From the NCBI GenBank assembly GCA_007859995.1, contig SMSL01000011.1:1-64000 (forward strand): 64,000 nt of DNA. The letters run 5' to 3'. Shown here one piece after another: positions 6,001 to 64,000 of the stretch. A model generated the notes under the pieces. It did not search any database. It saw nothing but the letters and a program-made list of their open reading frames with translations, and was not told where the DNA came from. Position numbers and translations under genes: made by a program. Every line of letters begins with the position of its first letter. Positions within the stretch are counted from its first letter, which is position 1. The stretch comes from Candidatus Brocadiaceae bacterium S225 (GTDB taxonomy: Bacteria; Planctomycetota; Brocadiia; Brocadiales; Scalinduaceae).

Positions 6001-9000
6001 GCAGTCGATGTCGTGCTTGAGATTCAAAGAACATTTGAAAAAGATAGAAGATCCAGGATCAATGACTACTTGAAGAATACATACAGCCTGACTAGCTCAC
6101 AAGTGGAGGTTCTTAAATCGTCAACCTACACTATATCTGAAATAGATGTGATATTGAAGAAGATAGATAGTCTTAGCGCAGAAATATACTCAGGAAATAA
6201 CAGTTTATTGACTGCAGGTATACAACAGATTGGGGATTCAATTAAACGTGATAAAAAGAAATTACTGAAGGAATATTTACAAAGTACATTTAACATAACG
6301 GCCGTGCAATTGGAGGATGAAATTTTACCAAATTTTGTTTCTGTCGATATAGATGGATTAGGAATAATAAGAGCATTAGATGCCGTTTTTACAAATGATG
6401 GAGAACCAGTTGATCCTGGAGACTTTGACGAATTAGTAGTGTTAGTAAGGGAAATCGAACGTGTGGGACTGTTATTCAGCAACTTGCGATTCGATGCAGA
6501 ATCGATTACGTATTTTATTGAGAATAAGACTGTTTTTGGAATCGATGATCTTAAGGAGCTGACACTTAATAATTTGAAGAATGCGTCATTCTATAAATCA
6601 CTGGTTGAGACAAACAGAGAGATGGAAGGTGAGATAGGGGAATTGCTGAAGAACTACCAACCAAACAAAATCTTTTCTGTTGAAGATATAAAAACCTTGT
6701 CAGATCTCTGGCAGCAACCTGAGGAGCAGATTAAATCATTGAAAGATTCCCTAACCTTTGATCCAAACGATTCTGCTTTGGAGGCCGTCAAATTCATCTT
6801 GGAGGCGCAGGAGGTGTGTCAGGAACTTGGTATTAGAGGAGATTCCCTGATCAAACTAACAGATACAGATTCAGAGGGGCTTCGGGCAGCCAGGGAAATA
6901 GCCATTGGCGCATTCGCGTCCAGGTACACAGAAGAAAAGGTTCGCGAAGAGAAATTGGAACCATACGTAGACAAAATAAACATGTTAAAGCGGGACGCTT
7001 TATGTGACTTCATTCTTACGCGTCAGGAGCAATTCAAATTTAATGACCGCAGAGACCTCTATAATTACTTTTTGTTGGATGTGGAGATGAGCGGCTGTTT
7101 TCGAACATCCAAAGTGGTTGCGGCTATCTCCAGTGTCCAGTTATATATACACCGTTGCCTCATAAACCTCAAACGATCAGAGAATTTATTTAAAAATCCT
7201 GCCGTTGTTGCCAGAGATGTTGACCCAACACTGATACCTGCGGATGAGTGGGAGTGGCGTAAAAACTACCGTGTCTGGGAGGCCAATAGAAAGGTATTCC
7301 TGTATCCCGAAAACTACATTGATCCTACCCTCAGGGACAACAAGACCCATATCTTTAAGGAGTTGGAGGAAGAGTTGCTCCAGGAAAAAATCACACAGGA
7401 ATCTGCAGAAACAGCTTATAAGAAATACATTTCGCAGTTTGCCGAACTGACAAAATTACGGTACGCGGGTGCTTATTATCATAGTATATCGAAAGGATTA
7501 TCCAATCTTGATTTGTCGGGTCCTGGTAAGATAAAGGTGGTTTACAAATTTTTAGACGGACTTACCTACAATTTGGAGTCGGAAGAGAGTTTATATTATC
7601 TTTTTGCACGCACAAACGTAGACCCTTATCAGTACTACTACCGGACGTATAACCATTATAAAGAGGCGTGGGGCAATTGGAAAAAGATAGAGCTGGCTAT
7701 AGAGGCGAAAGAGATTTCAGTTCTGATCTACCGTGGCAAGCTATACATCTACTGGACAGAGGTGAATCGTAAGGAGATAAAAAAGATAGTAGGTGGAAGT
7801 TCAGTACCAGGAGGCACTGAATTTAAGGTATATGCAAAATATTCATTCCTCAACGAAAATGATACGTGGAGCACCCCGCAACGCTTGTATGTGGGATATA
7901 CACACTTCGAGGATGGGAGGGCTTATTGGCGAATAGTAGGTGAAGAATTGCGAACTGAAAAAGAAAATGAATCTGATGAATATACAAAAAATAGAAAAAA
8001 ACAGGAAAATCAACATGATTATGTATTTGACCAGTTTGAGCAAAAGGTTTTCAGGAAACCATACACCACTTTTTATAATAATATAAATACTCCTATTACA
8101 CTCTCTTACATCTGGTCACAAAATCAGATTGTTCAACGAAAGGTAAGATATTTTGTACTAGAACAGAATTTTCAATGGCCTGTTGAGTATGAGAATCGCA
8201 CCGCTTCCGGTACTACATTTACAACTACTTATACTTATATTTTTACGATACCTCCTTTTGAATTTGAAGCAAGTAATAATTTGCAAATCAGTGTCAAGGA
8301 AATAAAGGTAACCATTAATGGTCCTAGTTTTGATGATGATGAGCAATTAGATGCATTAGTATATTTTATTGGGCCTACCACATGTACTATATTTATTAGG
8401 TTCGATCCGAAGGGGGGTAATGACGACGAGCTTGCAATCAAATTGTTAAGAGTATTTTCTTCGATGCCACCAGAAAATACAATTTATACTTCAACCTTCA
8501 AACAATCCCTATCTGAAAATAAAATAGTAAATAATTCAGAATTGGATATTAAGGACAAAAGCAGTAACTATGTGGATTTAAGTAATAGTTCAGCTGAATT
8601 CTTAAGAAAAGAGTATAAGGAGGCCTATACTGAAGATGGTAATTACTCTCAGTATATAGAAAACGGTACAAAATCCTTTGCGGATAAGGAAAAAATTCTT
8701 ACACAATTACGTTGGGGACAGGGACATTTGTCAATCCCCGGTGCATTTTTCGGTACTGATGCCGTAAGCCTGACTACCATCCTGACAGATGAGCTGAGTG
8801 ACATTTTGTTTGCCAAAGGGCTCGAACAGTTTTTGTCTTTAGAGACCCAGCAACTTGCTGACAATTCAGGACAAAAACTTGATTTCAATGGTGCTTATGG
8901 AGAATATTATTGGGAGATGTACTTCCATATTCCCTTCCTGATTGCCAATCATCTGAACGCGAACAGTAAGTTCAAGGAGGCCAAGTGGTGGTACGATCGT

Positions 9001-11931
9001 ATTTTTGATCCGACTGCCGATGAAAGTCCAACCGATACCAAACACTCTGATCACAACTGGCAGTTCCGTGAGTTTAGAAACCTTGACATTCAGAAGCTGA
9101 AAGATATTCTGGTAGACAGTGCGGCAATCGAAACATACAAGAAAGATCCTTTTAACCCCCACGCGATTGCCCGTCTCCGCTTGAACTCCTACCAGAAGGC
9201 AGTTGTCATGAAATACATCGATAATTTAATCGACTGGGGCGACAACCTGTTCGCTCAGGATACACGAGAGTCAATCAATGAGGCAAATATGCTATATCAA
9301 TTGGCTGCCGATATACTTGGTAAGCGGCCGGCCAAAGTTGGCACCTGTAAGACCGCCAGTGATGATGATTTAGCATATGAGAATATTGGTCCTGCAATCG
9401 AAAAGGGGTCAGCGTTTCTGATAACGTTGGAAAATTTCTACGCCGGTTTGAGATATAGATACGATTTCGATGTCAAACTTGTTAAAAAATCAAAATATCT
9501 GGCATCACTACTTGATAATGCGGGCGTTAGGCCAAAGACCAACAGTCTCGCTGCTGTTGCAAAAGCGGCAAATATAACGCGTTTAAGTGACAAGTTTGCC
9601 AGTGTGCCTGTAGTTCCAGGTGGTGTTCCCGCAGCTCCTGCTGGATCGGGTAATTACACCATAAAACTTTACGCCGATATTGTAAAGACGGAGAAACCGG
9701 TCGATGGAATAATTACCGACTGGACAGACGCAAAAGAGTATGAAGATAAGATGGAGACAGAGGAAACGAGTCGCGCTCCAAGCCTTGATATTGTTAAGCA
9801 GAGTGTAATGGTATTCTGCGTGCCCCACAACAGTGATCTGTTGAGATATTGGGACAGGGTTGAAGATAGGCTCTTTAAGATACGCCATTGTATGAATATA
9901 AGCGGTGTTCGCCGCAGCCTGGCGCTTTTCCAGCCGCCTATTGACCCGATGCTGCTTGTCAGGGCGAGGGCTGCAGGGTTGAGTCTTGAGGATATAACGG
10001 ATATGTTGGCGGCGTCAAATACAATACCGCCTTATCGCTTCGTCTATCTTATCGAAAAAACCAGGCAGTTTACTCAAACGGTGCAAAGCTTTGGCAATTC
10101 GCTACTGAGCGCCCTAGAGAAAAAAGATGTGGAAGAGCTGACCCTGTTACGGTCTGTACACGAAAGAAACATCCTGAAGATGTCCAGAGAGATCAAAAAG
10201 AGACAACTGAAAGAGTCCCAGCACCAGTATAAGTCAATGGAAGACGCCCTTGCGAACGTTCAGAATCGTATTGATTATTATGTTGGTTTGATTGAGGATG
10301 ATTTGACGGGATGGGAGACAACTCAGCAGGCATCAAAGCATACTGCTACTAGTATAAAAGCAATTAGTGCTATTTATTATGCTATGTCATCAAAATCAGC
10401 ATTGACGCCTCAATATGGCAGTCCTTTCTCAATAAATTTTGGCGGTATACAAATTAATCAGTATGCCAAATCATCTGGAAACAAATATGATACTGCAGCC
10501 AGTATTCTTGACTTGATTTCACAATCCGCTGGCTTGGAAGCAACCTTCCAACGCCGTGAACAAGAGTGGAAACAACAACTCAGGCTTGCAGAAACAGAAT
10601 ACAAACAGATAGAAAAACAAATGTTAGCTGCTGAGATCCGTAGTTTGATAGCGGAAAAAGACTTGGAAATCCATGAGAAGAGTATGGAGCAGGCAGATGA
10701 GTTAAACGATTTCTACAGAGATAAGTTCACTAATCTGGGTCTATATAACTACTTGGCTTCTACCCTCAATCGACTCTATCGCGAATCATATAATATGGCC
10801 TATGACATGGCTAAAATGAGTGAACGTGCGTATCAGTTTGAACGGGACGACAGTAACATCTTCATCGCGAATGATAACTGGCAGTCTGACCGTGCAGGCC
10901 TGTTGGCGGGTGAAAGATTACTGCTGCAGTTACAGGAGATGGAACAGAAGTTTATTGAGAACAACGTTCGCACGCCTGAGATTACACAGTCGTTCTCCCT
11001 GGCGTTACTTGACGCTTCCGAGTTGGTTAACCTGAGACAAACAGGTTCATGCACTATCAGGATACCCGAAATTGCCTTTGAGGTTTACTATCCCGGACAA
11101 TACAAACGCCTTATCAAGTCCGTAAGAATCTCCATACCGTGTGTGGTGGGTCCTTACACCAACGTAAGCGCAAAACTGACCTTGATAAATAGTAAAGTTA
11201 AGTCTGGAAAAGATGACAGCGAATTGACACCTCTGGAGATAGGCAAAAATACCTCAATCAGCGCCAGCAGCGCAAACAGTGATACTGGCATGTTTGAGTT
11301 TAATTTCAGAGATGAAAGGTATCTCCCTTTTGAGGGAAGCGGTGCAATCAGTGAGTGGACGGTAGAGTTGCCTTCAACAGTCAGGTCTTTTAACTACGAC
11401 ACGATCCCAGACGTTATCATGCACATCAGCTATACTGCCAAAGATGGTGACAGAGAAACTGCTGAGAGCAATCTTTCAACTACCATTACAACCTATGCTA
11501 CAGAACATGGTTTATTCCGTCTGTTCAGCCTGAAACACGAATTTCCGAATGCTTTTCATCAATTGTTGAATCCACAAGACGGTGGAGCGCAAGCAACTGA
11601 AATTTCCGTAGATAGTAGTCACTTTCCATATCTCTTTATAGATAAAACATTGAACATTACCGAGGCCAAAGTTTATTTTAAACCCAAAAAGGGCCTTTCA
11701 ATAATTTCCATTCCAACTATGGGATTCAACGGTGTCAATGCTGAGTGGAATACAGACGTAGACATAGCAATGCCTGGTCGCAGTGAGGAGAAAGACAAGA
11801 TGAAAGGTGGCACCTTAAGCATTAATGGTCGAAACCCTATAGATGAATGGACCATAAATACAGATGACAATGGTTTGGATGGAAATGTTCTGGAGGATAT
11901 ATTGATATTGATTAAGTATAGAATCTCATAA
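3070..11931 (+). CDS. TcA-type toxin-complex subunit (giant, 2953 residues)
   Basis: TcA proteins of the Tc (ABC) toxin family form pentamers that bind target cells and inject a TcB/TcC cocoon through an alpha-helical syringe. Family landmarks in order: a highly charged helical N-terminal 450 residues; a VRP1-like block near 509-545 (IDGFDELF, then CDCEHC at 524-529, then LGPAAYFADLMYF); long helical middle; the neuraminidase-like block near 1395-1430 (WEANRKVFLYPENYIDPTLR); the block at about 1943-1990 (YYWEMYFHIPFLIA); CVPHNSDLLRYWDRVEDRL near 2250; the coiled-coil pore region about 2345-2640; and the TcB-binding domain from about 2670 (YYPGQYKRLIKSVRISIPCV). Characterised TcA proteins are around 2400-2500 residues, so this one is longer. 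It has no signal peptide, as expected for the family. No TcB (SpvB/RHS) or TcC gene is in the window. Start chosen by AAGGAG upstream. Confidence 0.88.
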   Translation: MARRRTSKKLNLSFYLRPDLFKRKVSDIDDLKKDEREYVEKKLDEYLRSEILRIIGPEKPGIEKLLKKLKLDSLKLKEEDLNTVIKEKLLAKATRNNKLKKEIKEVEKLLEETPSVTVANVLRLDMPLRDHPVLAPDYRKKKTAELARIIDLKDDKADRLAEELEEKELDIDYANRATLNEFVEKKILTEKQKKELLITIDLSRLGGGNIELIEALKSDKLKSLEEFVTWEESDWVGLIEDVENKISLPEGEESAKIYAGNIRKNIEKTFPSPYFLKRVIKKKSDFNSEIKLLDSVSALFKNNDTIIDGKSINTKKLNWKGISSKKIKKIENDLEEFLPFANTYRELGIAEIVNDKSLNIKKKKDAITNRLANLETFYKNNTNLDLALTDFADNRARFIWDDIDKNERPRVRKQLMVYQRLFNLTEDSETARKLLNKGYHSGMDITNTAEGDFVKASGLDREKGRDVYNKAMKTSIAASHLFEAVRDVHSGLFKDIAVSNIVPMNNELSHIDGFDELFGRQNFCDCEHCRSVLGPAAYFADLMYFVQENVSKKAFEPDPMDHDLYLKNRRPDLWELQLTCQNTSTEIPYLEVVNDVLERYLSDKSILPDVYDWLREWESLVSMNLPFNLPLEELRLYLSHYELSLYDVYRLLKKPDESKKKQLGERLKISEEELKIITTPNTDGAHRIFGNIVLPTNFDVQDFVRYAGINRKELDDLLKSEFLSEISPDIVQVKVELIEKQDDIQQYEEFLQNLTESHLDLIHRFVRFWKKTSWTIREFDLVLNSLKSANLLDNLEDGNGYPKILQVSELTIIEEVLSLSVEEMCAMVGDIPQTPIEENQKGLYERLFDLEEIFGVDTDDEEIPPLLMAGLGISESELEALYILVDPDNNLPLDSTLISNLFRHARIARSLSLSIEDLIHAIELTLNGSPVSTLSHILDLIEFTSWLKSSPFSVSELIMILEGKESRSLKYRNDINTAVDVVLEIQRTFEKDRRSRINDYLKNTYSLTSSQVEVLKSSTYTISEIDVILKKIDSLSAEIYSGNNSLLTAGIQQIGDSIKRDKKKLLKEYLQSTFNITAVQLEDEILPNFVSVDIDGLGIIRALDAVFTNDGEPVDPGDFDELVVLVREIERVGLLFSNLRFDAESITYFIENKTVFGIDDLKELTLNNLKNASFYKSLVETNREMEGEIGELLKNYQPNKIFSVEDIKTLSDLWQQPEEQIKSLKDSLTFDPNDSALEAVKFILEAQEVCQELGIRGDSLIKLTDTDSEGLRAAREIAIGAFASRYTEEKVREEKLEPYVDKINMLKRDALCDFILTRQEQFKFNDRRDLYNYFLLDVEMSGCFRTSKVVAAISSVQLYIHRCLINLKRSENLFKNPAVVARDVDPTLIPADEWEWRKNYRVWEANRKVFLYPENYIDPTLRDNKTHIFKELEEELLQEKITQESAETAYKKYISQFAELTKLRYAGAYYHSISKGLSNLDLSGPGKIKVVYKFLDGLTYNLESEESLYYLFARTNVDPYQYYYRTYNHYKEAWGNWKKIELAIEAKEISVLIYRGKLYIYWTEVNRKEIKKIVGGSSVPGGTEFKVYAKYSFLNENDTWSTPQRLYVGYTHFEDGRAYWRIVGEELRTEKENESDEYTKNRKKQENQHDYVFDQFEQKVFRKPYTTFYNNINTPITLSYIWSQNQIVQRKVRYFVLEQNFQWPVEYENRTASGTTFTTTYTYIFTIPPFEFEASNNLQISVKEIKVTINGPSFDDDEQLDALVYFIGPTTCTIFIRFDPKGGNDDELAIKLLRVFSSMPPENTIYTSTFKQSLSENKIVNNSELDIKDKSSNYVDLSNSSAEFLRKEYKEAYTEDGNYSQYIENGTKSFADKEKILTQLRWGQGHLSIPGAFFGTDAVSLTTILTDELSDILFAKGLEQFLSLETQQLADNSGQKLDFNGAYGEYYWEMYFHIPFLIANHLNANSKFKEAKWWYDRIFDPTADESPTDTKHSDHNWQFREFRNLDIQKLKDILVDSAAIETYKKDPFNPHAIARLRLNSYQKAVVMKYIDNLIDWGDNLFAQDTRESINEANMLYQLAADILGKRPAKVGTCKTASDDDLAYENIGPAIEKGSAFLITLENFYAGLRYRYDFDVKLVKKSKYLASLLDNAGVRPKTNSLAAVAKAANITRLSDKFASVPVVPGGVPAAPAGSGNYTIKLYADIVKTEKPVDGIITDWTDAKEYEDKMETEETSRAPSLDIVKQSVMVFCVPHNSDLLRYWDRVEDRLFKIRHCMNISGVRRSLALFQPPIDPMLLVRARAAGLSLEDITDMLAASNTIPPYRFVYLIEKTRQFTQTVQSFGNSLLSALEKKDVEELTLLRSVHERNILKMSREIKKRQLKESQHQYKSMEDALANVQNRIDYYVGLIEDDLTGWETTQQASKHTATSIKAISAIYYAMSSKSALTPQYGSPFSINFGGIQINQYAKSSGNKYDTAASILDLISQSAGLEATFQRREQEWKQQLRLAETEYKQIEKQMLAAEIRSLIAEKDLEIHEKSMEQADELNDFYRDKFTNLGLYNYLASTLNRLYRESYNMAYDMAKMSERAYQFERDDSNIFIANDNWQSDRAGLLAGERLLLQLQEMEQKFIENNVRTPEITQSFSLALLDASELVNLRQTGSCTIRIPEIAFEVYYPGQYKRLIKSVRISIPCVVGPYTNVSAKLTLINSKVKSGKDDSELTPLEIGKNTSISASSANSDTGMFEFNFRDERYLPFEGSGAISEWTVELPSTVRSFNYDTIPDVIMHISYTAKDGDRETAESNLSTTITTYATEHGLFRLFSLKHEFPNAFHQLLNPQDGGAQATEISVDSSHFPYLFIDKTLNITEAKVYFKPKKGLSIISIPTMGFNGVNAEWNTDVDIAMPGRSEEKDKMKGGTLSINGRNPIDEWTINTDDNGLDGNVLEDILILIKYRIS

Positions 11932-53553: not shown

Positions 53554-54267
53554 CTACTGCACTTTACCATAACTGGTCTTGAACTTACCATCTTTTTTAA
53601 AAGAAATCATTATGTTATTGATTGCAGAATCGCCGAGTTCAGGATTAATGATTTTTTCAACAGCTTTTCCTAAATCTTCAGGATTGTTGATATTGGATTG
53701 ATTAAATCTGAGAAGAACGTCTCCCGCTTCCATACCCATAACACTCAGGAAGCTTTCTTCCTTTATCTCTGTGACCATAACCCCTGGTTTGTTACTTTTC
53801 ATTTCTTCTCCAGACCTGGACTTTATTTTGATATTTTCAGTATCTATCTGATCTTTTAGAAACGCGTGAAGTTTGAGGTCTCTGCTTTGGACTTTATTTT
53901 TTCCTTCTGATTTTAATTTATCTTTATTCCAGAAAGAATCCTGTGTAGACAGTAAAACCCATGCCGTCTTTTCTCCCTTTTTCAGAAGGATACCTTCCTT
54001 TTTCTTAATTTCAACTATCTCAAAATCATTAAGTTTGTCATGCAATTGATAAGTATTGATACTCCCGGAAAAAGGATCTTCAATTACAACCATTGGAACA
54101 TTTTTGCTGCCAATGATTATTCCTCTGATATGTATATCTTGCACACTTTCCACGGCATATGAGAAATTCATATATTGAGTTAAGATACAGATAGAAATAA
54201 CTGTAAAAACGGTTCTCATATTCAGTCTATATACGGCGCTTTTACAGTAAAAGCATTTAGACAGCAT
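53554..54267 (-). CDS. GspC-like protein (HR domain plus PDZ), copy 1
   Basis: A 237-residue protein. Near the start is a single membrane helix or signal anchor (TVFTVISICILTQYMNFSYA). A segment matching the homology region of GspC follows (IHIRGIIIGSKNVPMVVIED, YQLHDKLNDFEIVEIKKKEGILLKKGEKTAWVLL), and then a C-terminal PDZ-like domain (GVMVTEIKEESFLSVMGMEAGDVLLRFNQSNINNPEDLGKAVEKI). In type II secretion GspC links the inner-membrane platform to the outer-membrane secretin and helps choose substrates. It lies just downstream of an exported multidomain protein and has a paralogue at 58645 in the same context. The start may be an internal ATG at residue 17. Confidence 0.82.
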   Translation of the reverse strand: MLSKCFYCKSAVYRLNMRTVFTVISICILTQYMNFSYAVESVQDIHIRGIIIGSKNVPMVVIEDPFSGSINTYQLHDKLNDFEIVEIKKKEGILLKKGEKTAWVLLSTQDSFWNKDKLKSEGKNKVQSRDLKLHAFLKDQIDTENIKIKSRSGEEMKSNKPGVMVTEIKEESFLSVMGMEAGDVLLRFNQSNINNPEDLGKAVEKIINPELGDSAINNIMISFKKDGKFKTSYGKVQ

Positions 54268-54343
54268 CTATATTCTCCAGTGTAAATTCACAATAATACG
54301 TACTCACTCAATTCAGTCAGGTATTATAATAAATTTATGAAAA

Positions 54344-54377
54344 AAAGCCAACAGGCGTTTAATCGCCTGCTGGCTTT
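54344..54377 (-). terminator. Terminator of the 54391 gene
   Basis: On the minus strand the arms AAAGCCAGCAGGCG and CGCCTGTTGGCTTT (one mismatch, loop ATTAAA) are followed by six T residues. It lies a few bases past the stop codon of the large exported protein, so the GspC-like gene downstream probably has its own promoter or depends on read-through. Confidence 0.85.
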
Positions 54378-54390
54378 AATAAAACAAATG

Positions 54391-56910
54391 TTACCTTTCT
54401 CTGCGACGACGCTCTTGTGGTGTTTCGCTCGCCTCATTGCCAGTGACCGGACAAAGTTCCTGTCCACCCAAAACAGGCCTTACAATATAGTAAACAGTTA
54501 TACCATTTGTAAGTCCGCTATCAGTATAGGTGGAATATGTCGATGTCGTATTACCGATTAAGCCATAAGGTCCGCCTGGATTCAAGCCACTGTATACATT
54601 GTAAGAGTCAGCGCCCACATGAGTCCATACCAGAGTCACTTGACCTGTTTTAGCCCTTGCAGTCAAATCCTCAACACAAGGTATTTGAGGTGTATCACAA
54701 GCATCACCTACGCCATCACCGTCTACATCTTCCTGGCCCGGATTAGGCGTGTCAATGCAATTATCACACACATCACCTACGCCATCACCGTCTACATCAC
54801 CCTGGTTCGGATTAGCATCGTCAGGGCAATTATCGCATGCATCTCCTAATCCATCATTATCACCATCTGCCTGATTTGGATTAGGTGCGTCAAGACAATT
54901 ATCGCAAACATCTCCCACGCCATCACCGTCTCCATCATCCTGGTTCGGATTAGCATCGTCAGGGCAATTGTCGCATGCATCTCCTACGCCATCACTGTCT
55001 CCATCTTCCTGGCCAGGATTAGGCGTGTTAATACAATTGTCACAAACGTCTCCCACATCATCACTGTCTCCATCTTCCTGGCCCGGATTAGCATCTGCAG
55101 GGCAATTGTCTTCAGAATCGCATACCTGGTCTCCGTCTGTATCCAGACAACCACCGCCAACTGAACGCACTAAAACCAGGAGCGAGTAAGCCTGACGCGC
55201 AGCGTTATCCCAATTACCATGACCTGCCGGGTTGAGAAATTGTCCACTGGCATCCTGCAACAGTAAGAGTGAATAGGCAAAGTCGAAGTACCAGCGAGGC
55301 GGTTCGTTAGGATCATCGTAGTATGCGCCAGGATCTGGACCAAAAACCGCAGGCCTTGGTACAGTAGTCGGATCACGATGTAAAACACGTCCACCAAAGG
55401 CTGGCACGGCAGCAGGATCCAAAGTCCCCAGATCTGCAACAGCCAAATTACCTGCATTTGCTGTAATACCTGAATCTTCTAGAAAGGTCAAAGCCTTGGC
55501 AAAAGACCATAAATAATAAAAATATGAACCGCTCCAACCTCCACCAGCGCCAAGAATACTACGGTCGTTATATCGGTTATAAAGCCAGCGCAAATATGCC
55601 TGAACGCCAGCATCGTTTAAATCAGCGCCTCCGGCCAGCTGTATCCATGTACCGGATCCGGTTTGCTGTAGCGAATTCTGATTTCCCCTATTGTAACCAT
55701 GACCTAGCTCGCCAGGAGTAAGTACAGGGTTTTGGGCCGGTATACTGGCGTAAGCGGCTCTACATAATGCAGTAGCTGCATCGAGCTGTGCAATACGCGC
55801 AAAATCATTCTCATCGATAAGTACAGCACGTATGGCAGCAAGACCGGCAATAACAAACTGGGTTGTGGAAGAGTCTGAACACCCCCCATCACAGTAACAC
55901 CAATAGCCATCTGGAGCTTGAGCGGCTATAGTTCTATCAAAAATAGCAAGCAACGCTGGCAAAACATCTATCGGTCCACCTGTACGCCGATACACAGAAA
56001 GCGCCATCATGTCCTGTCCGTCCCTGTAAGCGTAAAAGGGAAGTCCACCAGGTCCACCAGGGCACGGTGCAGAGTTGAAAAAATCTTCTTCGCACACTGA
56101 ATTATATATAGAGCCACAATCACCTCTGGTCAGACGCGTAAAGGCAGTTATACCGTCCCCATTAGCTGGCACATCAGGGTCAGCCCCACAAGGTTTAGTA
56201 AAGGTAATCTGGCCACCTGTCCAGACCTTCTCTCCCGGCACACCCTCTGTAGACCTCAGGTATTGAAATCCAGGGAAAGGTGAACAACCTCCAACTTGAA
56301 CAGCGCTTCCACTTCCACCTTCACCTTCACCTTCACCTTCACCTTCACCTTCACCTTCACCTTCACTACCAAAACCACACGTATCCCACAGTGTAAATTC
56401 TACATCCAGATAAATATCCTCTTCAATCAAATGCAAGACAGCCGGTCTACCAAGCATATTTGGCCCTTGACCTCTACCAGACCAATCACGAAAAGGTTCG
56501 AAACTCAGATTCTGCCAATCAGCAGCATCACCGTCTGCCCATTCAGTATTACATGGTGCACAATTCTCATCCTCACCTCCACAACCATTGTCCTCGCGAT
56601 TTTCATCAATAATAAAGTCTACAGCAGAATTCATCCTGTTCTGATCAGCCGCATTAGCATTGACATATCCCTGCGGCGCGGCATTCTGGTCAGCGCTTAC
56701 ACGTTTTTCCAATAGTGATAACAAGGCCAAACCAGTGGCATCACCTGCACTACCGGTATAGGAGCCAGAACTATCCTGGAAAGTCAAACCCCTGTTTATA
56801 GCAGTATCGACATCAGTGCTAAAATTTGTGATCTGAGCGGTAGCAAGCCCACCACTGACTCCAACTACTACAGCCACCAGCACTGCAATAATAAAATTCT
56901 TTATTCTCAT
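54391..56910 (-). CDS. Large exported TSP3-repeat/Fn3 protein with arginine tail, copy 1
   Basis: An 839-residue protein with a signal peptide (NFIIAVLVAVVVGVSGGLATAQ). Residues about 30-580 carry repeated helix-rich segments of the prenyltransferase/squalene-cyclase-like toroid type (TTQFVIAGLAAIRAVLI, SYFYYLWSFAKALTFLED). A poly-GE tract lies near 182-198. Residues about 588-740 are six thrombospondin type 3 calcium-binding repeats (DGDGVGDVCDNC and similar). The last 90 residues are a Fn3-like domain with two cysteines (CVEDLTARAKTGQ ... QELCP), ending TPQERRRRER. The same last domain ends the paralogue at 59570. It should be secreted or displayed on the surface; the function is unknown. 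Confidence 0.82.
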   Translation of the reverse strand: MRIKNFIIAVLVAVVVGVSGGLATAQITNFSTDVDTAINRGLTFQDSSGSYTGSAGDATGLALLSLLEKRVSADQNAAPQGYVNANAADQNRMNSAVDFIIDENREDNGCGGEDENCAPCNTEWADGDAADWQNLSFEPFRDWSGRGQGPNMLGRPAVLHLIEEDIYLDVEFTLWDTCGFGSEGEGEGEGEGEGEGEGGSGSAVQVGGCSPFPGFQYLRSTEGVPGEKVWTGGQITFTKPCGADPDVPANGDGITAFTRLTRGDCGSIYNSVCEEDFFNSAPCPGGPGGLPFYAYRDGQDMMALSVYRRTGGPIDVLPALLAIFDRTIAAQAPDGYWCYCDGGCSDSSTTQFVIAGLAAIRAVLIDENDFARIAQLDAATALCRAAYASIPAQNPVLTPGELGHGYNRGNQNSLQQTGSGTWIQLAGGADLNDAGVQAYLRWLYNRYNDRSILGAGGGWSGSYFYYLWSFAKALTFLEDSGITANAGNLAVADLGTLDPAAVPAFGGRVLHRDPTTVPRPAVFGPDPGAYYDDPNEPPRWYFDFAYSLLLLQDASGQFLNPAGHGNWDNAARQAYSLLVLVRSVGGGCLDTDGDQVCDSEDNCPADANPGQEDGDSDDVGDVCDNCINTPNPGQEDGDSDGVGDACDNCPDDANPNQDDGDGDGVGDVCDNCLDAPNPNQADGDNDGLGDACDNCPDDANPNQGDVDGDGVGDVCDNCIDTPNPGQEDVDGDGVGDACDTPQIPCVEDLTARAKTGQVTLVWTHVGADSYNVYSGLNPGGPYGLIGNTTSTYSTYTDSGLTNGITVYYIVRPVLGGQELCPVTGNEASETPQERRRRER
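56316..56363 (-). repeat. Hexanucleotide microsatellite, eight CACCTT units
   Basis: Eight perfect tandem copies of CACCTT (minus strand AAGGTG) encode the GEGEGE tract in the preceding protein. The tract can gain or lose two residues at a time without breaking frame. Confidence 0.9.
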
Positions 56911-57408
56911 TTTCTTCTCTCCTTATAAAGTGCACAAAAGTATTAAGCACATCTACTGAAGATAATCAAAGTATGGCCAAATTCATTACAGCTTATTTAC
57001 CTCAATAACGTAAAACTATTATTTATTGCCAAAAAATCCTTGAAAAGCAATAACCTTCTCAACATTCTCTTGACAACTAAATGACAAACATTTGGTTTGA
57101 CTAGCGCAATAAAGATTTTTAGAATACGCTTACTAAGGGATAGCATTTGCACCCAAAAAAACCAAACCCTGACTTTTTTGGAGACTTATACCAGGTCTCG
57201 TTCAAAACCAGAAAGTCATTTCAGCGCAGGACGTATACTCTTGCGCATCTCCCTGTCAATATCTCAAAACCTCAGAGTGCTGCTGTGATATGACAGCAAG
57301 AAAGTGCTTGCAAATAGAAACGTTAAAATGAATTCATACCATAGATTTTCATCCAATGGCATGAATTCACAATACTTCAAAGTCTTCTAAAAATTCTACT
57401 TTCAATCA
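56911..57408. other. Intergenic region, largely shared with 62051-62572
   Basis: No gene. From about 57148 to the PEP-CTERM stop it is nearly identical to the stretch beginning at 62309; the part nearer the large protein (57060-57147) is only partly similar. It includes the terminator-like hairpin at 57329-57369 and the conserved phrase AATGACAAACATTTGGTTTGAC, which may be part of a promoter or regulatory site for the large exported gene. Confidence 0.6.
57329..57369 (-). terminator. Hairpin downstream of PEP-CTERM gene, copy 1
   Basis: Arms TGAATTCATACCAT (57329-57342) and ATGGCATGAATTCA (57356-57369), one mismatch. On the minus strand TTTTAACG follows. It lies 40 bases past the PEP-CTERM stop and is probably its terminator; the T run is short. 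Confidence 0.55.
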
Positions 57409-58161
57409 TTAACCTTTAATGAAACGTTTACCCAGACGTTTTCTGGTTGCAACCAGTCCAGCCATGCCTATTCCAAGCAGTATAACAGTAGACGGTTCCG
57501 GTACTACCGGATTATCTGAACCGATTTCTAATGTGCTTGAAAAATATATGGTAGCCAGACTATCAGGATCATTATGTGCAAGGTAAAAGCCTGAAGGAAC
57601 TACTGTATCACTTAGTACAAAGCTAATATTTGCAGATTCACCAGCACCCAGGATAAAATCCCAACCCAGCGCCATGGAAACGTCGTCTGGAAAAGTAGTA
57701 TTACCATGAGTACTTATTCCGATGCCGTCGTCTAAAAAGCTACCGGCTGCTACGGTATCCTGCAGGTGTTCATAAATATCTCCGTCGACCCAACCAGGTT
57801 CGTCTATCTCCCACGTCTGACCGGCGGCGGTTATTCCGCTTGTTGAACCGGTTTCGTTAAAGTAGGTGTTAACACTCTCGTCAATTTCATGATCAAACCA
57901 GGAGACCACAGAGTGTGCACCAACACCAGTAACCTTAACACCTACTGTTCCAAGTCCCGTGGTAAAACTGAAGCCACCGGTAGTATAAGTCGCATTGAGA
58001 GCTGCCCCCAGATCTCCCGGTGCATTAAGGTTTGGACTTGAAATTTCTTCGCCATCGGCATTAAACCCCCAATCGAAGAGATTAAATGTGACAGCCCTTG
58101 CGCTATCAGCCATTCCTACAGTTAAAAAGACAGCCATAAATAAAACCAACACTTTTTTCAT
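57409..58161 (-). CDS. PEP-CTERM sorting-domain protein, copy 1
   Basis: A 250-residue exported protein with a signal peptide (KVLVLFMAVFLTVGMADSARA). A beta-rich body has no recognised enzyme motif. The C-terminal tripartite sorting signal consists of VPEPSTVILLGIGMAGLVA followed by the basic TRKRLGKRF. PEP-CTERM proteins are cut and anchored by exosortase, often within an extracellular matrix or biofilm; no exosortase is in this window. I place the start at 58161, with a strong GGAGGAGGG ahead. It differs from the copy at 62573 by only two residues. Confidence 0.92.
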   Translation of the reverse strand: MKKVLVLFMAVFLTVGMADSARAVTFNLFDWGFNADGEEISSPNLNAPGDLGAALNATYTTGGFSFTTGLGTVGVKVTGVGAHSVVSWFDHEIDESVNTYFNETGSTSGITAAGQTWEIDEPGWVDGDIYEHLQDTVAAGSFLDDGIGISTHGNTTFPDDVSMALGWDFILGAGESANISFVLSDTVVPSGFYLAHNDPDSLATIYFSSTLEIGSDNPVVPEPSTVILLGIGMAGLVATRKRLGKRFIKG

Positions 58162-58644
58162 AATTACCCTCCTCCTATATAAAAAACCCACGACAAACTA
58201 AACAAACCAATTAAAAAGTAGAGTTAGTTAAAAACGAAAACCAAGATAGCACTAGATAATAATTACAACTGTACGGCAAAAAACAAACGGTATTGGCCGC
58301 TTAACTCAAGCAGATTTGATTAGACTGACAGATCAAACATTAATTGTCAATAAATATTTTTTCATGTAAAACAATACTCATTAAACATTGCTTATAATGT
58401 CTTAAACAATTTTACCGGCTTAATTCAATATTTAACAATAATCAAAAAAATATTGTCATAACTAGCTGCAATAATGGCACTTGAAGTTTGATACTTAGTA
58501 AAAACTGAATAAATCACAAGAGAAATCTTCTTTTTTGGAGTGCAGTGACTGCCTGCCCGCCAGTTTGCTGGGGCGGGTGTCACTACTTTAAAACGCATCA
58601 TCACTGGTAATGCACTCACATTCCCGGCACTCATTTTTAAGAGG
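58162..58644. other. Intergenic region upstream of PEP-CTERM copy 1
   Basis: No gene. It contains the PEP-CTERM leader (similar to that of copy 2), a degenerate version of the long palindrome seen at 63556 (here at about 58376-58402), and the dispersed structured repeat at 58536-58617 just beyond the end of the next GspC-like gene. Confidence 0.6.
58536..58617. repeat. Dispersed structured repeat, copy 2
   Basis: Outer arms GAGTGCA (58539-58545) and TGCACTC (58611-58617) enclose an inner AGTGAC...GTCACT pair and a GC-rich GCCTGCCCGCC...GGCGGGT hairpin. The copy at 12853-12935 keeps the same arrangement with decayed outer arms. Confidence 0.65.
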
Positions 58645-59355
58645 CTACTGCATTTCCCCGTATCTGGTTTGATACACACCGTCTCTCTCAAATGCAATTC
58701 TTATCGAACCGTCTTCAGGATTGATCAATTCTTTATTGATAAGTTTTTCTAAGGCGTTTCCCAGATCTTCTGGATTATTGATTTGCGTATCATTGAATTC
58801 AAGAAGGACATCACCGGGTTCAATGCCCATTATATTCATAAAATTTCCCTCTTTTATGTCTGTAACAGTGACGCCTACTGACAGCGAGTTATCTTTCCTT
58901 CCAATATCAGGCCTGAGCTCTGTATGGATATGCTCTGACAAATTATCGATATCTATCTGGTCTCTTTGAAAGGTGAAATACTGAGGCTCTTCATATCCCT
59001 GATACTCCTCACCTCCATGAACTAAAGAACTTTTATTGGACAAGAGAACACTTACCACTATCTCTCCCTTTTTGAGAAGAATGCCCTTCTGTTGTATCTC
59101 AATTATCTCGTAACCTTTAACAGAATCATGTAATCTGTAGGCATTAAGGCTCCCTGAAGACGGGTCTTCTATTATCACCTTTGGGATATCCATATTCCCG
59201 ACTGCAATTCCTCTAATGTATATATCCTGAACTACATCCTCTGCATAGGAGTAATGCATACACTGTATTAAAAAAGAGAAAGCAATAACAGTAATAACAA
59301 TACTCCCTGACAGTCGGCATACTATGTTTTTGTCGTGAAAAAGGTTGTGCGGCAT
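58645..59355 (-). CDS. GspC-like protein (HR domain plus PDZ), copy 2
   Basis: A 236-residue paralogue of the protein at 53554. It has an N-terminal anchor (SIVITVIAFSFLIQCMHYSYA), a GspC HR-like segment (IYIRGIAVGNMDIPKVIIEDP, YRLHDSVKGYEIIEIQQKGILLKKGEIVVSVLL), and a PDZ-like end (VGVTVTDIKEGNFMNIMGIEPGDVLLEF). The two copies are roughly half identical by eye, with best conservation in the HR and PDZ cores and least in the linker, where a partner-specific surface might lie. It follows the large protein at 59570 by about 215 bases. Confidence 0.82.
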   Translation of the reverse strand: MPHNLFHDKNIVCRLSGSIVITVIAFSFLIQCMHYSYAEDVVQDIYIRGIAVGNMDIPKVIIEDPSSGSLNAYRLHDSVKGYEIIEIQQKGILLKKGEIVVSVLLSNKSSLVHGGEEYQGYEEPQYFTFQRDQIDIDNLSEHIHTELRPDIGRKDNSLSVGVTVTDIKEGNFMNIMGIEPGDVLLEFNDTQINNPEDLGNALEKLINKELINPEDGSIRIAFERDGVYQTRYGEMQ

Positions 59356-59517
59356 TTCTATTCTCCATGGTTTACAATATAATCAGCGCCCGCTGCGGGC
59401 TTTGAACATTTAAGGATGGGTTAAAGCCCTCGGGCTAAACCCAACCTGCAGTCAAAAAACTACAACTCGTTTGCCGGGAAGACTTAAAACGGAAATTTCT
59501 GGACGGTGATATAAAAA

Positions 59518-59551
59518 CAACCGGCAGGCCATGTAAATTGCCTGCCGGTTG
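59518..59551 (-). terminator. Terminator of the 59570 gene
   Basis: Perfect 12-base arms CAACCGGCAGGC (59518-59529) and GCCTGCCGGTTG (59540-59551), followed by a T run on the minus strand. It lies just past the stop of the large exported gene, matching the position of the terminator after the paralogue at 54391. Confidence 0.88.
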
Positions 59552-59569
59552 TATAAAAACAAACTAACA

Positions 59570-62050
59570 TTAACGTCTGCGTCTGCGCTGCTCTTCTGGT
59601 GTTGCGCTTGCTTCATTAGACTCGCAAAGCTCGTCACCATTAAGTGCTGCCGGCCTTACTACATAGTAGTAAGTAGTTCCATTGACAACCGTAGTGTCAA
59701 GGAATGTAGAGTACGTAGATGTTGTCGTACCAATAAGTGTATAAGGCCCGCCGGCTGTAGTGCTGCGATAGACATTGTAGTGATCAGGACTTGTATCCGT
59801 CCATGTCAACTGCACCTCGCCACGCTTAGCTCTGGCGGACAGATCATCAATGCAGACACAGTCAGGATCACCGGCTGCTTTTACGCTAACCGTTGTTGAA
59901 GCTGTATGCGTAAGATCCGGCTGTCCACTTGATGGGAATGATAAAGCAGTATTATCGGTTACCCTTAACTGAATGAGGTAGTCACCCGTGCCTAAACCAC
60001 TGAAGAATGCAGTTACGTCAGGTTGAGGACCAAAGGCGTCATCAAAAAGGTTGTCACCATTAAGTTCCCATGCGTATTCTTTTATGAAATCCACAGGGTC
60101 ACTCTGTGTTTCACGCTCACCGTCATCCGGGTTAACTGACCCAGTGCCGTCCAGGTACCATGTAACTCCCGGACAAAAGGCATAGGGACCTCCCGGATTA
60201 GCTGTAGGTGCGATAGGTGGTGTGGTTATCTTTACGACCATGGTAGTTTCTGCAAATTTCTCATCCAAACCAACCCCGTTATCGCTCACACATAGTTTTA
60301 CAGGATAGTCTCCCACTGCAGGCCAGGAATTGAAAGCAAAAGGCCCGGATGCATCGTCACAAACGCCATCGTTATCCAGGTCCCAATCCCATGAATCTAT
60401 GCTTTTTAAAGCATCCTGATGAAAGGAGTCTGAACCGTCAAGAGTGATAACCTGACCGGCCACGCCTGGGTTTGGTACAGCTTTAGCTACGGCCACTGGA
60501 CTTCCCGCCTCAAATAGAGACTGCCCCAGCATCAAGATTGCCCAGGGAGTATGGAATTGATTTTGAGCACTACTACCGCCATAATGTCCAGACCAGAGTC
60601 CATGGTTGCCACCTCCGGATTTGTCCTGGTCGTCTACCAGATTTCTCGCGACGCCATGTGTGGCATCACTGTACCAGTCAATATCCGGCAGTACTGCCGT
60701 GTAGTCCCTCAGCATGGTAATTGGAGGTACGTGGAGGCGCATGGCCTTTACAAAGGAGAAGAGACCATAATAATATTCCTTGATGTTTGATACATAATTA
60801 CCTCCTACATTTTCAAAGTTATCACGCAAGTATTTCTCGGCTTTATCCCAACTAGGGAAACCGGCTGGGGGAGATCCCGGAGTACCTCCATCGCCACGCC
60901 CGAGACCATCCATAACCATTTGAACCAATCCGGATGGGGTGGTGGCAAAAGGCCCCCAAATGGTATTACTAGTTGAATAACCAAAATAACCTGCCGCGTG
61001 CTGACTGTAAACAAGCCAAGTTGGATTTAGAGCGGTTACGTGTGGTGGAATCAGTGCCCAGCCGTTCCTTACGGCAGGTATTATCCCTATCGCTGCCCAC
61101 TGACATATAGAGTTATCCCCCCCACTACCCCAACTATAGGTCCAACCACCCCGGTTAACTGCAGTAGGATGATTGTATTGACCATTAGAAACAGCATCGG
61201 CCATATCCTGAACAATATCTCCATACGTCCTGCCAATTACATTTGCCGGTCCGGTAGTTGTTACAGCACCAGGAGTCCCACTTGCAACAATAGCGTCCAT
61301 GTACGACCCGTGCTGGTAGTAGTAAGTCTGGCTGTTGTATATAGCTAAGCCGTTATTACCTGTATCAAGTGCATCCACAACACCATCACCATTATAATCC
61401 TCTGCATAAAGTCCGTTTTTTATACCAATAGCATATGCGGTTAAGTGGCTGAAAAGATCCTTGAGACCCTTTGCAACTGTCTCTTTGTATGGATTGTCAT
61501 CTCCCACAAGACTCTCAACGTGCCCGTTAGCCTCAAAGGCGTTAATCGCGTTCGCCCACACACCATGATAGATACTTATGGGAGACCAACTCCCGGTAGT
61601 TTTATTCTGATTCTTGTGCAGATACCAGAGGCCCTCATCAATTGCCACATTAACCTCCACGGCCAGAGTCTGAGCCCTGATAATGACGAGATACGTCTTA
61701 CTAGCTGTCTCATTCGTATTCTTGTCCCTGACAGTCAACCGGGCGGTAAAAATATCGCCAACGTTCCCGACATAGGTATGAAATGCCTGAAGGCTGTAAT
61801 TGTTGGGGCCGACATCGGTAAACGCCGTACTTCCGCCATCTCCAAAGTCCCATGAATACTCAAAATCTGTTCCAGTAACATCTGTAGTGCCTTTCAAGGT
61901 TATTGATTTACCACTCCAGGTATCATGTGGTATCAACGGGTTTGTCGCTACCCAGGGCACTGTCTTAACCACAGGCACAACAGCATAAGCCGGCATTGCC
62001 AGCCCAAACATCAGTACTGCAATAAACAGTGGTAAAATAAGTTTCTTCAT
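59570..62050 (-). CDS. Large exported PKD/Fn3 protein with arginine tail, copy 2
   Basis: An 826-residue protein (start at 62050, GGAGAGGAG upstream; an upstream ATG adds eight residues) with a signal peptide (LILPLFIAVLMFGLAMPAYA). In order: a PKD domain (about 30-125; EYSWDFGDGGSTAF), a helical toroid-like region (about 130-480; ICQWAAIGIIPAVRNGW, QFHTPWAILMLGQSLFEAG), two more PKD-like domains (WDWDLDNDG, YAWELNGDNLFD), and the terminal Fn3-like domain with CVCIDDLSARAKRG, YNVYRS, and ELCESNEASATPEEQRRRRR. It shares the last domain and arginine tail with the protein at 54391; the central toroid is related, but the repeat domains differ (PKD here, TSP3 there). Probably a secreted surface protein. 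Confidence 0.82.
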   Translation of the reverse strand: MKKLILPLFIAVLMFGLAMPAYAVVPVVKTVPWVATNPLIPHDTWSGKSITLKGTTDVTGTDFEYSWDFGDGGSTAFTDVGPNNYSLQAFHTYVGNVGDIFTARLTVRDKNTNETASKTYLVIIRAQTLAVEVNVAIDEGLWYLHKNQNKTTGSWSPISIYHGVWANAINAFEANGHVESLVGDDNPYKETVAKGLKDLFSHLTAYAIGIKNGLYAEDYNGDGVVDALDTGNNGLAIYNSQTYYYQHGSYMDAIVASGTPGAVTTTGPANVIGRTYGDIVQDMADAVSNGQYNHPTAVNRGGWTYSWGSGGDNSICQWAAIGIIPAVRNGWALIPPHVTALNPTWLVYSQHAAGYFGYSTSNTIWGPFATTPSGLVQMVMDGLGRGDGGTPGSPPAGFPSWDKAEKYLRDNFENVGGNYVSNIKEYYYGLFSFVKAMRLHVPPITMLRDYTAVLPDIDWYSDATHGVARNLVDDQDKSGGGNHGLWSGHYGGSSAQNQFHTPWAILMLGQSLFEAGSPVAVAKAVPNPGVAGQVITLDGSDSFHQDALKSIDSWDWDLDNDGVCDDASGPFAFNSWPAVGDYPVKLCVSDNGVGLDEKFAETTMVVKITTPPIAPTANPGGPYAFCPGVTWYLDGTGSVNPDDGERETQSDPVDFIKEYAWELNGDNLFDDAFGPQPDVTAFFSGLGTGDYLIQLRVTDNTALSFPSSGQPDLTHTASTTVSVKAAGDPDCVCIDDLSARAKRGEVQLTWTDTSPDHYNVYRSTTAGGPYTLIGTTTSTYSTFLDTTVVNGTTYYYVVRPAALNGDELCESNEASATPEEQRRRRR

Positions 62051-62572
62051 TTTAATCTTTTCTCCTCTCCACAAAAAATATATAAAAAAAATACATTTTC
62101 AAAGTTACTACTAAACTTTTTTGAATCTCTGCCGATAATAAGAGAATGAATGCCCTAAGAGAAGTAGTTTCATCAATGTTCCATTCTAGTCAAGATATAG
62201 AAATTAGCATCTCCTTGACAACAAAATGACAAACATTTGGTTTGACTAACGTAAAAAATATCTTTAGTCTCAAAACGGGCAAGGATAGTTTTCATGAGTG
62301 ATAGTATTTGCACCCAAAAAAAGAACCAAACCCTGACTTTTTTGGAGCCTTATACCAGGCTTCGTTCAAAACCAGAAAGTCATTTCAGCGCCGAACGTAT
62401 ACTCTTGCGCACCCCCCTGTCAATATCTCAAAACATCAGAGTGATGCTGTGATATGGCAGCAAGAAAGTGCTTGCCAATAGAAACGTCAAAATGAATTCA
62501 TACCATAGATTTTCATCCAATGGTATGAATTCACAATACTTCAAAGTCTTCTAAAAATTCTACTTTCAACCA
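62051..62572. other. Intergenic region, largely shared with 56911-57408
   Basis: No gene. The part from about 62309 to 62572 is almost identical to 57148-57408. It includes the perfect hairpin at 62493-62533 and the shared AATGACAAACATTTGGTTTGAC phrase near 62222. Confidence 0.6.
62493..62533 (-). terminator. Hairpin downstream of PEP-CTERM gene, copy 2
   Basis: Perfect 14-base arms TGAATTCATACCAT (62493-62506) and ATGGTATGAATTCA (62520-62533), 40 bases past the PEP-CTERM stop. On the minus strand TTTTGACG follows. Confidence 0.55.
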
Positions 62573-63325
62573 TTAACCTTTAATGAAACGTTTACCCAGG
62601 CGTTTTCTGGTTGCAACCAGTCCAGCCATGCCTATTCCAAGCAGTATAACAGTAGACGGTTCCGGTACTACCGGATTATCGGCACCGATTTCTAATGTGC
62701 TTGAAAAATATATGGTAGCCAGACTATCAGGATCATTATGTGCAAGGTAAAAGCCTGAAGGAACTACTGTATCACTTAGTACAAAGCTAATATTTGCAGA
62801 TTCACCAGCACCCAGGATAAAATCCCAACCCAGCGCCATGGAAACGTCGTCTGGAAAAATAGTATTACCATGAGTACTTATTCCGATGCCGTCGTCTAAA
62901 AAGCTACCGGCTGCTACGGTATCCTGCAGGTGTTCATAAATATCTCCGTCGACCCAACCAGGTTCGTCTATCTCCCACGTCTGACCGGCGGCGGTTATTC
63001 CGCTTGTTGAACCGGTTTCGTTAAAGTAGGTGTTAACACTCTCGTCAATTTCATGATCAAACCATGAGACCACAGAGTGTGCACCAACACCAGTAACCTT
63101 AACACCTACTGTTCCAAGTCCCGTGGTAAAACTGAAGCCACCGGTAGTATAAGTCGCATTGAGAGCTGCCCCCAGATCTCCCGGTGCATTAAGGTTTGGA
63201 CTTGAAATTTCTTCGCCATCGGCATTAAACCCCCAATCGAAGAGATTAAATGTGACAGCCCTTGCGCTATCAGCCATTCCTACAGTTAAAAAGACAGCCA
63301 TAAATAAAACCAACACTTTTTTCAT
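62573..63325 (-). CDS. PEP-CTERM sorting-domain protein, copy 2
   Basis: A 250-residue protein identical to the product at 57409 except for two residues (Thr/Ile in HGNTxFPDD, Ser/Ala in EIGxDNP). Signal peptide, VPEPST sorting signal, hydrophobic segment and basic tail are all present. Start at 63325, preceded by GGAGGAGGG. It is the first gene of the upstream tandem unit. The long palindrome at 63556-63586 may control it. Confidence 0.92.
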   Translation of the reverse strand: MKKVLVLFMAVFLTVGMADSARAVTFNLFDWGFNADGEEISSPNLNAPGDLGAALNATYTTGGFSFTTGLGTVGVKVTGVGAHSVVSWFDHEIDESVNTYFNETGSTSGITAAGQTWEIDEPGWVDGDIYEHLQDTVAAGSFLDDGIGISTHGNTIFPDDVSMALGWDFILGAGESANISFVLSDTVVPSGFYLAHNDPDSLATIYFSSTLEIGADNPVVPEPSTVILLGIGMAGLVATRKRLGKRFIKG

Positions 63326-64000
63326 AATTACCCTCCTCCTATATAAAAAAACCCACGACAAACTAAACAAACCAATTAAAAAAGTAGAGTTTAAAACGAA
63401 AACTAACGATAGCACTACTCAATAAATATATTAATAATTGCAACTGCACGGCAAAAAAACAAACGGTACTGATCGCTTAACTCAAGCAGATCTCGTGATT
63501 TTGACATATCAAACATTATTTGTCAATAAATATTTAAATATTTATTTATACAAACAAGACATATTAAACATTGTTTAATATGTCTTAAACAATTCTACCG
63601 GTTTAATCAGATATCTGCTAATAAACAAAATAATTATTGCTGTAACCCATTGATATAACGGTGCTTGCAGTTTAGTGTTTCATGCGGATTGATTAAATCG
63701 TAAAAGAAATAGATTGGAAAAAATAGTAAAACATATCATCTCTCTCGTCTCATTGTTTCACTCTTAATTTGAGTGTTACCCGGAATCAATACATGACCTG
63801 AGCTTGACAATTACCTGAAAAATACTTAACAACTGTTTGGTTTAACTACTAAACAGTGTCTAACTATAATACCCAAAATTAGTAATACAAATAAAAGGCA
63901 TAACGTTCCAGAGAAAAAGTATACGCAGGGGCTATTGTTTACCTCATTTTTGAGAGATGAGAGTCAGATGATTCTCGTCTCCAGGCAGAGGCGCAAACAA
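63326..64000. other. Gene-free right end of the window
   Basis: No gene is supported. The first 100 bases repeat the leader of the other PEP-CTERM copy; beyond about 63620 similarity fades. The palindrome at 63556 is the only clear signal. Confidence 0.5.
63556..63586. promoter_or_regulatory. Long perfect palindrome upstream of PEP-CTERM copy 2
   Basis: Arms AAGACATATTAAAC (63556-63569) and GTTTAATATGTCTT (63573-63586), 14 bases each with a three-base centre. It lies about 230 bases upstream of the start codon. The equivalent site before copy 1 (58376-58402) is degenerate. It could be a dimer-binding operator or a transcript hairpin. Confidence 0.5.

Follow-up and report, generated by a model that had tools for sequence, protein, structure and literature searches.

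Tandem genes for large exported proteins and small GspC-like HR+PDZ proteins in a Scalinduaceae bacterium: possible cargo-dedicated adaptors of type II secretion

The genes described here lie in a stretch of 64,000 nucleotides (hereafter, the window) from Candidatus Brocadiaceae bacterium S225 (Planctomycetota; Scalinduaceae), which corresponds to positions 1-64000 of contig SMSL01000011.1 (C11 of genome G000 in our numbering). The genome comprises 2.96 Mb in 28 contigs and is 79% complete; genes were called as open reading frames (ORFs) only. On the minus strand of the window, a gene for a PEP-CTERM protein is followed by one for a large exported protein and by a third for a small protein with HR and PDZ domains, and this order occurs two times in tandem, as had been proposed in an original prediction made from the sequence alone, with which the ORF coordinates agree. 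For brevity, the large proteins are called cargoes and the small ones adaptors, names that anticipate the interpretation given below. The features are the following:

62573..63325, minus strand: PEP-CTERM protein of cassette 1 (copy 1), encoded by its first gene (ORF; PEP-CTERM motif above the Pfam cut-off)
59570..62050, minus strand: cargo 1, with signal peptide (by eye), PKD, helical core, PKD repeats and Fn3 tail ending in RRRRR (ORF)
59570..59863, minus strand: Fn3 tail domain of cargo 1 with C-terminal arginines (alignments; Fn3 by PDB sequence match)
58645..59355, minus strand: HR+PDZ adaptor 2, 236 aa (ORF; PDZ_2 at E 5.9e-5, below cut-off; weak TIGR01713; hhalign)
59035..59238, minus strand: HR domain of adaptor 2, approximate (adaptor alignment, hhalign)
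58660..58908, minus strand: PDZ domain of adaptor 2, approximate (Pfam match below cut-off)
57409..58161, minus strand: PEP-CTERM protein of cassette 2 (copy 2), with 99% identity to copy 1 (motif match, alignment)
57378..58177, no strand assigned: tract 98-100% identical in DNA to its counterpart in cassette 1 (DNA comparison)
54391..56910, minus strand: cargo 2, with signal peptide (by eye), TSP3 repeats and Fn3 tail ending in RRRRER (ORF; TSP3 by Pfam)
54391..54693, minus strand: Fn3 tail domain of cargo 2 with C-terminal arginines (alignments)
53554..54267, minus strand: HR+PDZ adaptor 1, 237 aa (ORF; PDZ_2 at E 0.0014, below cut-off; hhalign)
53944..54150, minus strand: HR domain of adaptor 1, approximate (alignment, hhalign; six strands in a low-confidence model)
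53569..53805, minus strand: PDZ domain of adaptor 1, approximate (Pfam match below cut-off)

The adaptor gene follows its cargo gene after 214 bases in the case of cargo 1 and 123 bases in that of cargo 2. The PEP-CTERM motif (PF07589) exceeds its cut-off in both copies of the first gene (28.8 bits against 20.7), and the two copies share 98-100% DNA identity across about 800 bases (57378-58177 and about 62542-63341). Beyond this tract, identity falls to 92-95% and then to 60-69% downstream, and to 75-82% and lower upstream. Because of this drop on either side, the array is probably an old tandem duplication whose first gene was recently homogenised. A truncated third copy was observed by eye at L022:5933-6178 (loci and genomes are cited by our L and G numbers). 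It comprises a signal peptide and only the first half of the Fn3 tail, and a transposase-like ORF comes after it.

Both cargoes have N-termini that, judged by eye, resemble signal peptides, and their tails (about 100 aa, with the C-terminal Fn3 domain) are 58% identical. The repeats differ, as originally predicted, with PKD in cargo 1 and TSP3 in cargo 2, both above the Pfam cut-offs. The predicted sharing of a C-terminal domain also stands, but that of a toroid core does not, as only the tail is common to both. Once the tail was removed, the two cargoes gave no mutual BLAST match at E ≤ 1e-3, and neither large protein matched any of the toroid families. The model of the N-terminal PKD domain and core of cargo 1 is helical (pLDDT 39.6) but too poor to decide the matter, and the shared toroid core was rejected. 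Cargo 2 also contains a run of Gly-Glu repeats (56308-56370).

The two adaptors are 48% identical and vary mainly in the linker, in agreement with the original claim of conserved HR and PDZ cores joined by a differing linker; the PDZ part of that claim holds with matches below the cut-off, and the HR part by profile comparison only, not by PF11356. This family gave nothing in the genome, so it also missed the GspC-like protein of the gsp locus. The GspC model TIGR01713 matches weakly but colinearly across HR and PDZ (14.9 and 22.7 bits against a cut-off of 101.6), and a GspC model is the best NCBIfam match of adaptor 2. When the window pair was combined with a protein from L053, hhalign aligned it with the paired HR domains of the GspC-like protein encoded at the gsp locus (91.9%, E 6.9e-7); the window pair alone reached a score of 21.6 and a probability of 18.9%, the best of 60 column shuffles scoring 16.0. 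The structure model of HR+PDZ has a pLDDT of 39.6, and its top Foldseek match, LspC (7oio, E 0.076), is a hint only. Both adaptors have an h-region, SYA at residue 38, an HR starting at about residue 43 and no other strongly hydrophobic stretch. As the HR begins about five residues after the putative cleavage site, their N-termini look like cleavable signal peptides and the proteins look free in the periplasm. Membership in GspC was rejected, given the absence of an evident membrane anchor, the position of the genes outside the gsp locus and the scores below the family cut-offs: these small proteins are GspC-like, not GspC.

The genome has a gsp set, located on contig C1, and so does not lack the GspD, GspE and GspF genes whose absence would have spoken against the original prediction. 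GspD (L020:15462-17504; 405.9 bits, cut-off 351.35) and GspG exceed the NCBIfam cut-offs, and GspE (605.3 bits against 630.25), GspF, GspK and GspM are matched below theirs; GspL-, H-, I- and J-like genes were called by position, with partial or no matches. The GspC-like protein of this locus (L020:8593-9966) has one HR that matches GspC and a second recognised by eye from its likeness to the first, and no PDZ was detected in it at E ≤ 0.1. A second locus with a secretin and an ATPase lies at C1:1-14 kb. In another genome (G433, locus L056), gspD (6573-8789) is located about 6 kb from an arginine-tailed protein, and a gene for a clan AA aspartic protease (4956-5717) lies in the neighbourhood of the latter.

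The pairing of cargo and adaptor is not restricted to the window. Relatives of cargo 1, with 31-51% identity excluding the tail, were found at 9 other loci; records with such relatives include ones named Gammaproteobacteria, Verrucomicrobiales and Desulfobacterales. In six other genomes (L053, L055, L146-L149), five of them belonging to the order of G432, they are followed by an adaptor-type gene. In these six loci, as twice in the window, the trio of PEP-CTERM, cargo and adaptor genes lies on one strand and in the same order, and relatives of the PEP-CTERM protein (43-49% identity) adjoin cargo relatives in L052-L055. The relative of cargo 2 is a protein of L144 (47% identity over 384 aa), whose cluster contains an STN/N0-PDZ gene, with a PEP-CTERM gene between the two. 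Thus, each of the two cargo bodies, which are unrelated by BLAST, occurs together with a PDZ adaptor in two lineages that are far apart.

The adaptors in the order of G432 (two in L055 and one each in L100, L101, L102 and L107) are proteins of 254-331 aa in which an STN/N0 domain precedes the PDZ. Pfam recognises STN in 3 of these 6 proteins at E ≤ 0.01 (best E 5.8e-8) and PDZ in all 6, the PDZs of both L055 proteins have a GspC model as their best NCBIfam match, and the window PDZ aligns with the PDZs of this set (88.4%, E 2.8e-6, 51 columns). By domain comparison, the putative docking domain is exchanged between HR and STN/N0 while the PDZ is constant. In type II secretion, the HR of GspC binds the N0 of GspD, according to PMC12369372; the first domains of the two adaptor types would therefore be the two sides of one contact. 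In the same order, STN-type proteins of about 190-232 aa with no PDZ match were also observed (L121-L124).

The converse search used a profile built from the six STN/N0-PDZ proteins, run on 389 genomes of the order of G432. At E ≤ 1e-50 it returned nine full-length genes of the STN/N0-PDZ type, spread over 8 genomes, followed by a gap to partial matches at E 2e-20. Eight of the nine lie beside a cargo gene or one gene away: six are downstream of five cargoes (two in a row in G432), one is directly upstream of its cargo (L143) and one, that of L144, comes after the cargo and the PEP-CTERM gene. Since six of these genes had supplied the profile and had been found via their cargoes, the independent part of this result is three new genes, two of them near a cargo. 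Tail (9 genomes) and adaptor (8 genomes) co-occur in 5 of the 389 (Fisher p 9.5e-8), a value that carries the same cargo-led bias and does not control for relatedness.

Searches for further HR+PDZ genes relied on a profile with two rows only, which distant HR+PDZ genes could escape. Within its own genome, this profile picked up the two window genes, its remaining matches being confined to the PDZ regions of longer proteins. Of the 75 genomes of the class, the genome itself was the only one to match at E ≤ 1e-6, the other 74 giving nothing. In a sample of the phylum (n=392), 20 genomes matched at E ≤ 1e-4, only through the PDZ part outside the genome itself, and three short proteins from this sample showed no HR by eye. 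A first search of a wider contig collection gave nothing, but it used two N-terminal motifs only and is a weak negative. The idea that several plug-in adaptors serve one machine, advanced in the original prediction, thus keeps its gsp set and its cargo pairing elsewhere, but not a larger adaptor family in one genome, as this 79%-complete assembly yielded no more than two HR+PDZ genes.

The tails are more widely distributed. Searching with a tail profile gave a relative in a genome of the same genus (G048). In its four-row form the profile was matched by 5 of the 39 pattern matches, from two records named Gammaproteobacteria, one each named Verrucomicrobiales and Desulfobacterales, and one further bacterial record. 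With nine rows, 14 strong tail matches (E ≤ 1e-15) were obtained in seven genomes, and the order of G432 added another 12; in that order, 9 of 389 genomes, G432 included, have at least one. An adaptor lies directly downstream of 8 of these 26 (two here and one each in G430, G432, G734, G783, G784 and G676). For 6 others no judgement was possible, as the gene or the contig continues past the part that was read (G433, G471, G725 and G788 with one each, the second in G783 and a third in G734). The last residue is arginine in all 17 of the 26 matches that end at the tail, although these are homologous sequences rather than 17 independent events and have no baseline from other Fn3-ended proteins. 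In a tally of single-core cargoes, chosen after seeing the data (two in the genome itself, G430, G429a, G431a, G432a, G734, G783, G784, G676, G556, which is cut by the contig end, and G475), the adaptor is beside the cargo or one gene away in 10 of 12. Giant proteins that contain this core or carry an Fn3 internally (G429b, G430b and others in G734, G783 and G725) were not accompanied by a dedicated adaptor wherever the following gene was read; in G734, the small cargo's adaptor sits between that cargo and a giant gene in convergent orientation. In G429 (L083:4919-5476) and G433 (L056:572-1018), a small ORF resembling a lipoprotein, with a C-terminal motif common to both, was noticed by eye next to tailed proteins without a PDZ adaptor.

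On the basis of the gene layout, the domains, their recurrence in distant bacteria, the exchange of HR and N0 and the presence of the gsp set, we propose, with confidence that we would place midway between doubt and conviction, that the small proteins are free periplasmic, cargo-dedicated adaptors of type II secretion with an exchangeable docking domain. Each cassette would then encode a large exported cargo and a small free periplasmic protein for that cargo. The docking domain of the latter (HR or, in the relatives, STN/N0) would fit the type II secretion machine, and its PDZ would hold or present the neighbouring cargo, probably via the Ig-like Fn3 domain or a nearby surface. In this way the adaptor would supply in trans the cargo-selecting PDZ that was not detected in the genome's own GspC-like protein and, with the PDZ moved into a separate, cargo-dedicated protein that has its own docking domain, one machine could serve added cargoes through the gsp system. 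A broader form of the proposal is possible, but we hold it only tentatively: that, in several bacterial groups, type II machines use separately encoded soluble cargo receptors (PDZ plus HR or STN/N0), which enter the same machine from either side of the GspC-GspD contact, and that the Fn3 tail with its obligatory C-terminal arginine is one signal that they read. The choice of cargo in type II secretion is an open question, which neighbouring genes for a cargo and a free PDZ protein, with the docking domain exchanged between the two sides of a known contact, would make testable with defined pairs. If the proposal is true, the type II secretion machine has plug-in receptors.

Several known systems resemble parts of this arrangement. 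The sorting signals PEP-CTERM, GlyGly-CTERM and type IX CTD are, as here, reusable C-terminal modules on large exported proteins, but no transmembrane segment precedes the arginines in the present tails, as judged by eye. The succession of HR and PDZ and the weak match of TIGR01713 over both domains recall GspC/EpsC/OutC, proteins in which an N-terminal inner-membrane anchor and a linker precede the HR and in which a C-terminal PDZ is frequent but not universal; by contrast, the adaptors have no evident anchor, their HR starts a few residues past a putative signal peptidase site, their genes sit with the cargo outside gsp and their scores are far below the family cut-offs. In the order of G432, the first adaptor domain resembles the N0/STN of GspD, but in these adaptors it is fused to a PDZ and no secretin domain is present. 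For the cargoes, the nearest parallel is found in the Ig/Fn3 determinants of VesB, PelI and Pel3, in which an Ig-like domain bears PDZ-linked information for type II secretion. PMC12369372 describes the PDZ of GspC-type proteins as serving a subset of cargoes, VesB as requiring the PDZ of EpsC, and its Ig fold, when grafted on beta-lactamase, as being captured by the PDZ and secreted in a PDZ-dependent manner; a loop of the PelI Fn3 is reported there to contact the PDZ of OutC. In Pel3, the Fn3 loops are part of a composite secretion signal, as described in PMC7949064. The tail profile matches the chains of PelI (3b4n, E 6e-4) and Pel3 (4u49, E 9e-5), but in the PDB it scores best against Fn3 domains from other proteins (3mpc, 5g56), which points to a general Fn3 likeness. 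Here, unlike in those proteins, the Fn3 is C-terminal and ends in basic residues, and the PDZ is encoded by a separate gene. Within the open-licence PMC literature, no published match to this layout was found.

A number of observations weigh against the proposed adaptor function. The best NCBIfam match of adaptor 1 is of the DegP type, comparison of the HR with a single E. coli GspC sequence gave no match, and the STN/N0 domain shows no relation to the window HR by profile comparison. At L053, the gene after the cargo encodes an HR protein of 214 aa with no detectable PDZ; at L052 and L054 the cargo and PEP-CTERM genes are present and no adaptor ORF was found; and the STN/N0-PDZ gene of L145 has no such cargo within the 12 kb read. 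Twelve of the 26 strong tail matches have no adjoining adaptor, so that many arginine-tailed proteins without an adaptor nearby, an outcome contrary to the original prediction, are in part what was found. A general rule by which each arginine-tailed protein has an adaptor was rejected on the same counts (8 of 26, six not judged), and of the exchangeable, substrate-dedicated adaptors first envisaged what stands is the pairing, which recurs for both cargo types, but not its extension to every arginine tail. The L144 cargo has an adaptor in its cluster yet no Fn3-arginine tail; consequently, the tail may not be what is read, or not the only thing read. The net charge of the PDZ region ranges from -12 to +5 across 12 proteins, which does not suggest a general arginine-binding surface, and tails paired with STN/N0-PDZ proteins have 1-3 arginines among their last eight residues, so that an electrostatic reading of polyarginine by the PDZ is weakened. 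Finally, GspE-type ATPases with at least 605 bits occur in 8 of 8 genomes tested (5 of them over the GspE cut-off), including G017, which has only Fn3 matches without an arginine tail; these ATPases therefore do not discriminate.

Some of these points would be expected if the small protein were a periplasmic holding or quality-control factor, with the PDZ as a substrate clamp, no type II docking, and an HR or STN/N0 used for self-assembly or cargo binding. Profiles and chains of the DegP type are matched by the PDZ parts as well, more strongly than GspC in the case of adaptor 1; many tails have no adjoining adaptor, and the aspartic protease gene near the tailed protein of L056 would fit such a role. 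We nevertheless consider this explanation rather unlikely, as the two first domains found, HR and STN/N0, are the pair that meets in type II secretion and the L055 PDZs match GspC best. A different origin for the association is suggested by the neighbouring genes: an Ebo-like cluster (L024:2054-6979), immediately upstream of the cassettes and in the same orientation, has an EboC-like gene (UbiA-like, 241.0 bits against a cut-off of 250), a phosphodiesterase, a TatD-like gene and TIM barrels, as in Ebo clusters, and Ebo-like genes are also near the cassettes in L146-L148 (the EboC-like match of L147 is cut by the locus end, and L146 has a weak TatD match only). A YdjY-domain gene recurs too (L053, L055 and, by eye, others), together with TVP38-, methyltransferase- and radical-SAM-like genes named by eye. 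Since the ebo cluster has been implicated in metabolite transport to the periplasm (PMC6282210), the trio could be part of an Ebo-linked metabolite or envelope pathway, in which the large protein would be an envelope enzyme or scaffold, the small one its structural partner and type II secretion incidental. However, the cassette genes themselves are not Ebo genes, and such a pathway explains neither the exchange of HR and N0 beside a constant PDZ nor the gspD on the L056 contig, which makes it improbable in our view. Least of all do we expect the HR+PDZ gene to be an unrelated passenger carried along by the old tandem duplication. The cassettes are indeed duplicates, and the class offered no other HR+PDZ gene in the search mentioned above, but distant bacteria show the pairing again, with a partner whose first domain has been exchanged, and both the converse search and the recurrence of the trio already make hitchhiking very improbable.

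Elsewhere in the window, a 2953-aa ORF (3070-11931) has the TcA-type toxin complex domains TcB-binding, ABC_toxin_N, neuraminidase-like and VRP1.

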